In this document: in pieces, positions 21,114 to 25,132 of the stretch | Numbering within the stretch: the stretch's first letter is position 1 | How the letters are laid out: every line of letters begins with the position of its first letter | From: Bacteroidia bacterium | GTDB lineage: Bacteria; Bacteroidota; Bacteroidia; SpSt-205 | Length of the DNA stretch: 64,000 nt | Direction: 5' to 3' | Assembly (NCBI GenBank): GCA_026414975.1 | Contig: JAOAHZ010000011.1 | Coordinates: 1-64,000 of the forward strand | Program-made: the position numbers and the translations under genes | Notes under the pieces: model-generated | What the model was told of the DNA's origin: nothing | What the model saw: only the letters and a program-made list of their open reading frames with translations | Database searches by the model: none

Positions 21114-22649
21114 CTACCACAGCTCTAATAGACGATAATCCACACCAGGCCAAAAATGAGCGGGTTTAGGACCAGCATATTTTTTTAGCCACTCAGATAG
21201 GCGCGTTCGCTCCTCTGGATAAGCCCGCACTAACCAAGCTATTTGGCGTTTCCTCACCAGCTTCTCTATCTGAATAGCTTTGGTCTCCTCAACGGATAAG
21301 CGCTTCCGAACAAGCTCCATTCCCTCCAAAGCATCAAACCCTTCTATACCAGGTAACCCTTTGATATAGCGGCGCTTTTTAGATGGTTTCTTAGCTGGCT
21401 GAGGCACCCAAACCTCTAACTGCTTGAGCGCCCAAACTTTACGCTTTTCCAGCTTAGGTTTTTTCAGGAAACGGCCTTTTTTATCCGAGAAATGCGCCAA
21501 CACATAGACCCGATACCCCATCACATAGCCTGCTACGGGCACGCGCCCATAGGCTTGGGTATTGACCCATTCACTGATAGAAACGCCGCTATAGGCGCTA
21601 ACGAGTTGGCAGTGCTTTTTATGACGAGTGAATAAATAGCGAAGGTCATGGGCAAAGCGCTCGGTAGCGGTCATTACACCCCTTCTTTGAGCATCACAGG
21701 GCACATCGTAAGCCTCAGGCAAACGATGCCTGATTACAGGAGCGCTACAACTGTACCGATCAAAACTTTTATGCGGTACCGGGGGCGGCAAACAGGCTAC
21801 TTGCTCATACCGCTTAGGCGCCAGATGGAATAGACGAGGTGGTTTGCAAGCATAGCGATCAAAGTTCTTGTGAGGTATAGCTGGCGGCTGGCAAGTTTGG
21901 GTTGGTTCGGGTCGCTTGTGTCGCACAACGGGAGGAAAGCAACTCACTTTTTCTGTCAAACGATCTCGTGGAGGAGGTGGAGGCTCGCAGGCTGAACGAG
22001 AGGGCTGACGATGGCGGATCGGACGCTGGCTGTAAAGCATACCCTCTGGAGCTCTGCGATGACGCAGAGACTTTGGCTGGAAAGTATAGCGTTCAGCCCG
22101 ACGGGAACGAGAGATGTTGTAGGCTTGGAACCGCTGGCGTTCTGCCCGCATCAGGGCACGCTGCTGACGACGACTCTCCCGAAGCGCTAGTCGTTCAGCC
22201 CGCTTGTAGGCCCGATGCTGATGACGATACGCCCGAAGAACATGCCGCTCAGCTTGTCTTCGGTGCCTAATCCTCGGAGAATAAGGCTGGAAAGCCTCCT
22301 GCCGCTCTAAAGGCTTATGACGAGCTGAGTAAGTCGGCATACGAAAGCGTTCAGAACGGCGTCGGTGGATGACAGGCGACTCATAAGGACTGAATGATTC
22401 CTGTCGCCGAATAGAAGAGTGTTCTGGCGCAGAGGTTGAAGTACGAAATCGCTCGGCTTTGTTGGCTCGTTTGGGGTAACCGTACCTATCTACGCGAGCT
22501 TCAGCTCGCCGTAAGGAGCGGCGGCGAGGCTTCTCCTCAGAAACCTCCACTTTCTCAGGACAGTTTGGGCCCGTACATTTCTCTCGGGAACGCAATTTCT
22601 GACCCCATGCCCCCCCTAAAATAAGGAATACAGCCCAGAAATAACGCAT
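21114..22649 (-). CDS. Secreted, very basic tandem-repeat protein of unknown function
   Basis: I do not recognise a family. The 511-residue protein has a signal peptide (MRYFWAVFLILGGAWG, then Gln). Residues about 41-318 consist of some 16 degenerate units of 15-18 residues, each ending near RRAE/RxxE and carrying a R-H-K/R or H-R-R core. In the first units the anchor position is Phe, Leu or Tyr (RYTFQP, EAFQPY). In the last it is Cys (CEPP, CFPP, CQPP, CKPP, CLPP, CSAP), with Cys at 221, 237, 253, 268, 286, 301 and 318. A Lys/Arg-rich C-terminal domain (about 330-511) has no visible repeat. The net charge is strongly positive, suggesting binding to a polyanion or a disulfide-linked envelope scaffold; this is inference. 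A GATATTTG element lies 16 nt before the ATG. Confidence 0.75.
   Translation of the reverse strand: MRYFWAVFLILGGAWGQKLRSREKCTGPNCPEKVEVSEEKPRRRSLRRAEARVDRYGYPKRANKAERFRTSTSAPEHSSIRRQESFSPYESPVIHRRRSERFRMPTYSARHKPLERQEAFQPYSPRIRHRRQAERHVLRAYRHQHRAYKRAERLALRESRRQQRALMRAERQRFQAYNISRSRRAERYTFQPKSLRHRRAPEGMLYSQRPIRHRQPSRSACEPPPPPRDRLTEKVSCFPPVVRHKRPEPTQTCQPPAIPHKNFDRYACKPPRLFHLAPKRYEQVACLPPPVPHKSFDRYSCSAPVIRHRLPEAYDVPCDAQRRGVMTATERFAHDLRYLFTRHKKHCQLVSAYSGVSISEWVNTQAYGRVPVAGYVMGYRVYVLAHFSDKKGRFLKKPKLEKRKVWALKQLEVWVPQPAKKPSKKRRYIKGLPGIEGFDALEGMELVRKRLSVEETKAIQIEKLVRKRQIAWLVRAYPEERTRLSEWLKKYAGPKPAHFWPGVDYRLLELW
21696..22529 (-). repeat. Degenerate 15-18-residue coding repeats (about 16 units)
   Basis: Within the basic secreted protein, units align on a pattern of aromatic-or-Cys, then Pro, then His-Lys/Arg, then a terminal Glu/Asp. 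The last six intervals between Cys are 16, 16, 15, 18, 15 and 17 residues. Divergence between units is high, so this is an old expansion and not recent slippage. Confidence 0.7.
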
Positions 22650-22712: not shown

Positions 22713-23783
22713 TTACTTGACAGAGGGCAAAGCCTCTAATCTATAGGCGCTCAGGCCAGGCAATCTAAAAGTCCGCCTATAAGTTAGCCGTATCCACAAG
22801 CCCATGAGCCGCCAAAGTCCCCATTTTTCACGCAGGTACTTTATCGTACTGGGCAGAGAGCTCCAGAAATACTTGGAAACCTCTACCGCAAAACTCGGCT
22901 CCATGTAGCAGTTTATGACGCAGCCTTCACAAAAGGCGAACCGTCCTTCTAAGCGCCTCAAATGTGCAATAGTCGGAGAGTGGTACAGCTCATACAAACG
23001 CCCTTGAATAGGGAAACGATAGCCTTGCTCATGAGCATGGTAACATGGCAAAAGCAGCTCATCCATAGGCGAAATAACCACCGCAGCCGAGGCAGCTCTA
23101 CAGACGGGGTCGTAGATAGAGTTTCCACCAGCTTCTCGCAACCGCAGGAAGGCTTCATTTAGGTAGATGTACTTTCGGCGAGCCCAACGACTTAGTTCTC
23201 GGAGGACCTCGGCTGGGAGAGTAGCGGCTCCCAGACCATTGTAGGCAAAGATGGGATTCAGAATCAAAATCAACCTATATGGCTCGGCAAAGCGGCGATA
23301 GACCGCCTCTATGTCCATCCAGTTCTCTTCTGTAACAGTGAAGAGAATGTCGGGATGCTCGCCGAGTTTTCGGGCAACCCGAATACTTTCCTCAAAAAAT
23401 TCAAAGCAGGGCACATTACCCCTCAAGCGGTTGTGCTTCTCGGCTGTGGCAGCATCTAAAGAGAAGTGGAGCATGTCTATTTTGCCTGCCAACTCTTTGG
23501 CTCGCTTGGGGTAGAGCAGGGTGTTGGTTGTGACCGTGGTTAGAAAGCCCATTCGCTGGGCCATATCCAAGAACGCTGGCAGCTTCTGATGCAGGAGCGG
23601 CTCCCCTCCTGTGAAGTCTATAATCCGCACCCCTAAACGCCTGAGGTCTCTCAGGTTGCGAGCTACGCTCTCTTCAGTGGCATAGGGCGAAGGCTTTTCC
23701 CAAATATCACAAAAGCTACAAGCGGCGTTGCATCGGTAGGTAAGGTAGTAATTGCAAAGAACAGGATGGGTAATCAGGCGCAT
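22713..23783 (-). CDS. Radical SAM protein with C-terminal Cys motifs
   Basis: This 356-residue protein binds a 4Fe-4S cluster through CNAACSFCD (CxxxCxxC), followed by the GGEPLL motif of radical SAM enzymes and the FSLDAATAEKH strand. C-terminal Cys (PVCRAA, LLPCYHAH, FCEGCVINCYME) resemble a SPASM-like auxiliary-cluster region. A basic amphipathic tail follows. The true start is ATG 23783 (MRLITHPVLCNYYLTYRCN); the frame extends further upstream only inside mpl. It follows mpl by 2 nt and is cotranscribed with it, so a role in envelope or sugar-lipid modification is possible, but the substrate is unknown. Confidence 0.86.
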   Translation of the reverse strand: MRLITHPVLCNYYLTYRCNAACSFCDIWEKPSPYATEESVARNLRDLRRLGVRIIDFTGGEPLLHQKLPAFLDMAQRMGFLTTVTTNTLLYPKRAKELAGKIDMLHFSLDAATAEKHNRLRGNVPCFEFFEESIRVARKLGEHPDILFTVTEENWMDIEAVYRRFAEPYRLILILNPIFAYNGLGAATLPAEVLRELSRWARRKYIYLNEAFLRLREAGGNSIYDPVCRAASAAVVISPMDELLLPCYHAHEQGYRFPIQGRLYELYHSPTIAHLRRLEGRFAFCEGCVINCYMEPSFAVEVSKYFWSSLPSTIKYLREKWGLWRLMGLWIRLTYRRTFRLPGLSAYRLEALPSVK

Positions 23784-23785
23784 CC

Positions 23786-25132
23786 TCAAGGAATACCGAT
23801 ATCTTGAGGGGTAAGCCCAGCAAAGGTCCCAGAAGAAAGGAGTAAAATAGCTCGGGGGGGATGATGGAAGGCTTCGCATAAAGCGGTCGCCAGAGCCTGA
23901 CGGTCGGAAAACCACCGAACACCCTTGCCTAAGCTCATTCGCAGGGACACAGGGTCAGCTCCCTTTTCCCATGCTACCTTTTCATCCAAAAATATCCAGC
24001 ATTCCTTAGCCGACCGCACGGCCTTTTGGTATTGAGTAGCATACGAGGGTTGAAGGCTGCTATAAGTGTGAAGCTCCAAAACAACTGTCAAAGGTAGCTT
24101 GGGGAATGTCTCTCGGACGGCTTGGATGACGGCTTGAACCTTGCTGGGGGCATGAGCAAAGTCCCGCACCACCACCCGTTCAGCGTCTCTGTACCACACG
24201 ACTTGCCGCTGCTCAGGCAGCTCAAAAGTGCTGAGAATCTCAGCAAAATCCCGATCCTCTACGAAAAATTCTTGGAGTAGGCGCCAGACAGCGGCAGCGT
24301 TGAGTAGGTTATGCCGCCCCCAAAAGCGGACCGGAACCACCCGACGACCCAACCGAACAAACCATCGTCCCTCTCGCCGGAAGTGAGGCAGTTCGTTATA
24401 CGGTATAGCCATCTGCCAACCGGGACGCAGGACCTTCTCTACCAAAAGTTTTACGCTGGGGTCGCTGGCATTGTAGAAGCACACACCTCCCTTAGGAAGG
24501 GTCTGAAGTAAGTGTTCAAAAACTTGGAGATATCGCTCAGGAGTGGGATACACATTAGCGTGATCCCATGCTATACCATTCAGAATAAGCCAGTGCGGAC
24601 GATAGACCGCTGCTTTGGGTTGGGGATTGAGAGCGGAGGCAGGGTATTCGTCTCCCTCAAAGGTAAATGTAGGGGCATCGGTCAAGCGCAGCGTAGTCTG
24701 TAAGGCTGGCGTGCGCGCCCCGATAAGCCAGTCTACCGGTATTCCTAACTTCTGAAAGGCATAGACCAGCAGAGCGGTGGTGGTGGTTTTACCGTGGCTA
24801 CCAGCTACGACGATTCGGTGCTTTTGCTCGGCAGCTTTCGCAATAAAGGTTGGCATGTCTATAATAGGTAAGCCCAGCGCCTGAGCCCGTAGAAGCTCGG
24901 GGTTATCGGGACGAGCATGCATGCCTATTATTACCAGCTCTATGTCGGGGGAGAGTCGATCAGGAAACCAGCCTTCCTCAGGCGGCAGGAGATTCGCCGC
25001 TGCAAGACGAGAGCGAGCTGGCTCTTCTATGCGATTGTCGGACCCTGTTACGATATTGCCGGCTTGCTGGAGGTGAAGCGCTAAAGCATGCATCACACTG
25101 CCCCCAATCCCTATAATATGGACGCGCCGCAC
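23786..25132 (-). CDS. mpl: UDP-N-acetylmuramate:L-Ala-gamma-D-Glu-meso-DAP ligase
   Basis: This 448-residue Mur ligase is of the Mpl type, which reattaches recycled tripeptide to UDP-MurNAc. It starts VHIIGIGGSVMHALALHL, has the ATP-binding loop VAGSHGKTTTTALL, the central motif FEGDEYP (Mpl has FEGDEYD-like, where MurC has EADE) and WDHANVYPT. The DAP specificity agrees with the DNPR motif in MurE. The start is GTG 25132, 4 nt after TAACTTTG. The radical SAM gene follows by 2 nt. MurC itself is not in the window. Confidence 0.9.
   Translation of the reverse strand: MRRVHIIGIGGSVMHALALHLQQAGNIVTGSDNRIEEPARSRLAAANLLPPEEGWFPDRLSPDIELVIIGMHARPDNPELLRAQALGLPIIDMPTFIAKAAEQKHRIVVAGSHGKTTTTALLVYAFQKLGIPVDWLIGARTPALQTTLRLTDAPTFTFEGDEYPASALNPQPKAAVYRPHWLILNGIAWDHANVYPTPERYLQVFEHLLQTLPKGGVCFYNASDPSVKLLVEKVLRPGWQMAIPYNELPHFRREGRWFVRLGRRVVPVRFWGRHNLLNAAAVWRLLQEFFVEDRDFAEILSTFELPEQRQVVWYRDAERVVVRDFAHAPSKVQAVIQAVRETFPKLPLTVVLELHTYSSLQPSYATQYQKAVRSAKECWIFLDEKVAWEKGADPVSLRMSLGKGVRWFSDRQALATALCEAFHHPPRAILLLSSGTFAGLTPQDIGIP

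Follow-up and report, generated by a model that had tools for sequence, protein, structure and literature searches.

A gene on the minus strand of the window (the whole stretch of DNA that was analysed, 64,000 nucleotides) encodes a protein with a degenerate repeat, which is divided into an Arg-rich and a Cys-containing zone and is followed by a conserved C-terminal domain. It is a core gene of two orders of Bacteroidia, being present in 13 of 13 genomes examined from its own order and in 3 of 3 from the order of genome G051. Sequence comparison indicates a real family that is undescribed in the libraries searched, with repeat and C-terminal domain both apparently new.

Gene extent and parts

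The gene was delimited by an ORF call, and its parts are listed in Table 1. The first-pass annotation, which gave no strand, had placed the protein at 21696-22529. This interval corresponds exactly to residues 41-318 and thus to the repeat region, but it covers no more than the central part of the gene, and the signal peptide, the C-x-G-x-x-C pair and the C-terminal domain all lie outside it.

Table 1. Parts of the gene, with positions in the window.
Feature	Position	Strand	Basis
Whole gene, 511 aa plus stop	21114..22649	-	ORF; full-length orthologues in relatives
Predicted signal peptide, residues 1-16, MRYFWAVFLILGGAWG before Q17, without lipobox	22602..22649	-	By eye; Q17 nearly invariant in a 15-row alignment
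C-x-G-x-x-C pair, Cys25 and Cys30	22560..22577	-	Present in 17/20 proteins with intact N-terminus
Cys-free, Arg-rich repeat zone (residues 41-215)	22005..22529	-	Autocorrelation, unit matrix, unit alignment
Cys repeat zone (residues 216-315) with six Cys in 15-18-residue units	21705..22004	-	Autocorrelation, Cys spacing, unit alignment
Conserved C-terminal domain, residues 316-496 (about 180 aa), Cys318 and Cys347	21162..21704	-	Alignments of relatives
C-terminal tail, residues 497-511, AHFWPGVDYRLLELW	21117..21161	-	Kept in own family

Inspection of the window protein by eye revealed no lipobox; cleavage is likely before Gln17, and the first Cys is residue 25. In the set of 20 whose N-terminus is intact, the proteins of G287, G157 and G186 lack the C-x-G-x-x-C pair. 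One of the two domain Cys was invariant in 21/21 proteins, and the other was nearly so. Minus its signal peptide, the window protein has a pI of 10.8 and a charge of about +68. The earlier description of an exported basic repeat protein was supported. Judged from the sequence, its location is most likely periplasmic.

Repeat unit and periodicity

BLOSUM62 autocorrelation over residues 41-318 gave peaks at lags 34, 18, 16, 33 and 15, and the maximum was reached by 0 of 500 shuffles. The same autocorrelation gave 0/500 for the Arg-rich part alone and 0/500 for the Cys part alone, in contrast to the C-terminal domain, whose maximum was reached by 15/500. The periodicity therefore lies above that of all 500 shuffles, so that this comparison, which the first-pass annotation had named as one that could refute it, came out on its side. 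Its estimate of about 16 degenerate units of 15-18 residues is likewise in agreement with the 278 residues, into which about 16-17 units fit. From the lags of 33-34 it appears that units of two slightly differing lengths, 15-16 and 17-18 residues, alternate. No tandem repeats were found in the gene at the DNA level, so the protein repeat is old.

For the unit alignment the repeats were cut at His, so that the His column exists by construction and the other columns do not. The unit in the N-terminal zone follows the pattern H-[K/R]-x-x-[A/F]-[E/D]-[R/K]-[F/Y]. Units of both kinds share the starting His, an acidic column (E in 56/59 Cys-free units, D or E in 31/43 Cys units), then Arg/Lys and an aromatic residue. 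A terminal Glu, which had been described together with a His-Arg/Lys core, was not confirmed, since Glu/Asp is internal and lies 4-5 residues after His. Constraint acts more strongly on the domain than on the repeats, which have drifted; identity to three relatives was 80-82% in the domain and 49-58% in the repeats, and third codon positions differed most in both.

Relation of the two repeat zones

A unit matrix was built from the Cys units of the other proteins of the same taxonomic family, with Cys omitted, and was scored on the Cys-free zone against 500 shuffles. Its score was reached by at most 10 shuffles in 10 of 12 proteins, by 17 in G007 and by 61 in G010, and the earlier proposal that both zones consist of one unit was thus supported within the family. 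A stricter matrix, trained on other taxonomic families only and applied to 14 proteins with 300 shuffles, was weaker. It was clearly above the shuffles in 3/14 proteins (G240 and G347, 0/300 each; the window protein, G000, 6) and weakly above them in G002, G287, G012, G004 and G007 (11-41/300). Scores did not rise above the shuffles in G001, G005, G006, G008, G009 and G011 (91-161/300).

The Cys had been taken to replace Phe/Tyr in the unit. This is correct for the relative G287, in which Cys clearly stands in the aromatic column (other units there: Tyr 6, Phe 2 of 9). In the own family the aromatic residue stays and the Cys follows two residues later. The aromatic column is present there in both kinds of unit (Tyr in 16/43 Cys units, Phe in 28/59 others), and the column of the Cys is occupied in the 59 Cys-free units by Pro (19), Tyr (10), Leu (7) or Phe (6). 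The replacement of Phe/Tyr by Cys consequently applies to only some members of the family.

Cysteine layout

Seven Cys were located at residues 221, 237, 253, 268, 286, 301 and 318, with the spacings of 16, 16, 15, 18, 15 and 17 residues that had been claimed. Six of them belong to the repeat as described; C318 belongs instead to the C-terminal domain, as the first of its conserved Cys (residue 3, alignment A3). Across 21 proteins, the distance from one Cys of the repeat region to the next was 15-18 residues in 122 of 131 cases, the other nine being 5, 7, 10, 20 or 47. Homologues with conserved Cys spacing thus do exist, and the second condition under which the first-pass annotation would have been refuted likewise came out in its favour. 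The set of 21 omits G090, in which the gene is partly masked, and includes G059, which is cut by a contig end.

In the part of the repeat region that lies beyond residue 80 of the protein, Cys occurred only in the C-terminal half, next to the domain, in 14/21 proteins (the first 80 residues were ignored in this count except for G059). The exceptions were G003, G010, G051, G123, G157, G059 (cut) and G186 (no Cys repeats). Cys extend through most of the repeat in G051 and G123 and through almost all of it in G157. Given these layouts, and the presence of the domain in G186 in the absence of Cys repeats, members of the family can do without the Cys zone. In G051 and G123 (loci L048 and L081) the repeat alternates strictly between 15 and 16 residues, two C-x-G-x-x-C pairs lie close to the N-terminus, and after the domain comes a long tail rich in Lys and Glu. 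The G186 protein (L080:7356-8372, plus strand) carries N-terminal repeats of another kind, SFADxxxPFxRGDPRGxG.

In 8/12 own-family proteins the number of Cys, counted from residue 21 onwards, was odd. At least one Cys in each of these is thus left without an intrachain partner, which argues against simple intrachain pairing of every Cys. Such pairing is also disfavoured by a search for DsbB (PF02600) and VKOR (PF07884), which detected neither in the 22 carrier genomes that it covered.

Distribution and family status

One match was obtained in the own genome. In the order of G347, the gene was detected in 6/22 genomes, which belong to four families, and in 0/13 of the genomes listed for family f3 of that order. 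The class sample contained 22 carriers among 395 genomes, and in the phylum sample 1/395 matched, which was the own genome. The best GldN scores were 81-118 bits in all 22 carriers, compared with more than 235 among the best matches that were listed for the class. Low scores were seen in the related family f3 as well.

A search of Pfam-A with the window protein yielded no matches at E-values up to 1, and other members gave sub-threshold chance matches only, none over the gathering score. NCBIfam, including the models of T9SS sorting domains, gave no matches for the window protein or for 9/9 relatives tested. With PHROGs, searched with the window protein only, no match was obtained at E-values up to 5. 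Against the PDB, E-values were 0.49 or worse for the window protein; of the domain profiles one gave 5.5 and one none, and two relatives gave none better than 0.9. Literature searches listed no paper on such a protein. The statement that it belongs to no known family was therefore upheld, in that none of Pfam, NCBIfam, PHROGs and PDB gave a convincing match.

AlphaFold2 models from five-sequence alignments reached a mean pLDDT of 43.8 for the whole protein and 50.1 for the domain and provided no usable fold. Foldseek with the latter model gave no PDB matches at E-values up to 0.001, a result that carries little meaning with such a model. The order of elements in the domain model (a helix, about six strands and three helices) is only a hint at a pLDDT of 50.1.

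Gene neighbourhood

Orthologues and conserved neighbours had been proposed as a further check; orthologues were found, but the neighbours are not conserved. Directly upstream on the same strand lies a radical SAM gene (PF04055; window 22713-23915, minus strand) with a Cys-rich C-terminal stretch. It was rejected as a modifying enzyme, the same gene being upstream only in the closest relative, G004. A TonB-dependent receptor gene (Pfam) is located downstream in the window. The commonest neighbour in the own family was a convergent asparagine-synthetase-like gene, at or near the 3' end in 7/11 other genomes (by eye, partial ones included). At loci L036, L038, L039, L043 and L045, from own-family genomes, the 3' end of the gene overlaps this convergent ORF by tens of bases, a place taken in the window by the TonB-dependent receptor gene. 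The asparagine-synthetase-like gene was discarded as an operon partner and says nothing on function. No neighbour recurred in such a way as to name a function or a partner. Scans of the window for Rfam families and tRNAs gave nothing, and a scan for promoters and terminators gave no more than was found in shuffles.

The T9SS locus of the own genome (L088, C46:83000-92500) comprises, in order, a uroporphyrinogen-III-synthase-like gene, a PorP/SprF-like gene and apparent gldK, gldL, gldM and gldN (GldN by Pfam, the others by eye).

Proposed role and alternatives

The protein is tentatively regarded as a periplasmic polymer-binding scaffold that is cross-linked by its Cys zone, a possible representative of an undescribed family of exported structural proteins. 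The first-pass annotation had suggested that the polycation might bind LPS, DNA or polyphosphate, or might be joined by regular disulfides into a layer of the envelope. The chain would be exported by Sec and cut by signal peptidase I before Gln17. The N-terminal zone would form an extended ribbon of strongly cationic character, which may follow an anionic polymer of the envelope (peptidoglycan, lipopolysaccharide or another polyanion). The Cys zone by the domain, with one Cys per unit, would form thiol or disulfide links together with the C-x-G-x-x-C pair and the two domain Cys, probably in part between chains, and these links may hold the ribbon in place at the docking site of the conserved domain. 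The cationic ribbon, the position of the Cys zone beside the domain and the core-gene status are all consistent with an exported structural protein. Disulfide cross-linking is favoured by a Cys spacing that is kept while the unit drifts, by the odd Cys counts and by the interchain disulfides reported for the phylum. In Bacteroidota, envelope proteins are reportedly tied to a periplasmic track by interchain disulfides (PMC12635249), which makes such links possible in this phylum. The lack of DsbB and VKOR in the carriers counts against cross-linking. The scaffold reading is further weakened by the Cys layouts of G051, G123, G157 and G186, by the low-confidence models, by neighbours that name no partner and by the weaker result of the cross-family unit matrix. 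A more far-reaching version, speculative and in our view unlikely, is a new class of polymerising envelope protein, in which a cationic aromatic ribbon sits on the envelope polymer, a Cys ladder locks the oligomer covalently and the new domain serves for docking; the C-x-G-x-x-C pair could initiate the exchange as donor disulfide, with no need of DsbB or VKOR.

Cys-rich cross-linked envelope proteins exist, e.g., the proteins of the chlamydial outer-membrane complex. The window protein would share with them export, the presence of Cys and a proposed stiffening of the envelope by disulfides, but no sequence relation was found in the searched libraries, and the present family is set apart by a regular His/Arg/Glu unit of 15-18 residues and by its new C-terminal domain. 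Repeats of 15 residues form the triple beta-spiral of the adenovirus fibre and the beta-helix of the spruce budworm antifreeze protein, the latter with Cys. The likeness consists in a repeat length of about 15 residues and, for the antifreeze protein, in the Cys, with no sequence match. The disulfide attachment of SprF and PorG to GldK, in the gliding and T9SS track of Bacteroidota (PMC12635249), has in common with the proposed scaffold the phylum, a probable envelope location and Cys motifs that possibly make interchain disulfides. SprF and PorG are outer-membrane proteins, SprF with a C-x-C motif (PMC12635249), whereas the window protein is a soluble-looking repeat with C-x-G-x-x-C and one Cys per 15-18 residues.

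With its strong positive charge, the protein might also be a plain polycation. Its ribbon of Arg, Lys and His would then serve as a spacer or attach to an anionic polymer, its Cys would brace the chain internally only, and the domain would be the functional part. The domain is indeed the best conserved part, and in G186 it occurs without Cys repeats; we nevertheless consider this reading doubtful, as the regular Cys spacing across three orders despite the drift of the unit suggests that the Cys matter, and the odd Cys counts also speak against it. Since every Cys unit contains a single Cys and a single His, neighbouring units could instead line up Cys/His sites that bind zinc, copper or some other ligand, and the basic zone would tether them. 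The window protein contains five C-x6-H pairs; Cys and His are 6 apart in most units of the own family and 5-8 apart in G012, f49, f65 and G347. The missing DsbB and VKOR would fit as well. Such a metal or cofactor binder was judged unlikely, however. The His are equally regular in Cys-free units and so occur independently of Cys, the Cys period persists in G051 and G123 although they have just 3 and 0 Cys-His pairs, and no metal-binding family was matched above the cut-off.

An accessory role in T9SS or gliding, with disulfide links to the moving track as reported for SprF and PorG on GldK, has the published precedent (PMC12635249), the presence of the locus described above and GldN in 22/22 carriers in its favour. 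Since GldN was also detected in 378/395 sampled Bacteroidia genomes, this co-occurrence is uninformative. The gene lies outside that locus, and the low-scoring GldN, which is found in non-carriers of f3 too, is read as a mark of the clade. A relation of the domain to GldN/PorN was rejected at an hhalign probability of 0.2%, and the accessory role as a whole appears very improbable. A chance low-complexity Arg-rich ORF without function would fit the degenerate unit and the lack of a tandem repeat in the DNA, but orthologues in 13/13 genomes of the order, the codon-position constraint and a periodicity above 500/500 shuffles leave it practically no likelihood; it is refuted by the conservation of the gene.

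Implications

A gene that is kept in every examined genome of two orders, and whose repeat and domain occur in no searched library, may well be a component of the cell envelope of these bacteria that has been overlooked, and is a good candidate for one. The alignments made here suffice to define two new families, one for the domain and one for the repeat. Should the Cys zone be cross-linked, the protein would constitute a covalent envelope scaffold in genomes in which neither DsbB nor VKOR was found (22/22 carriers).
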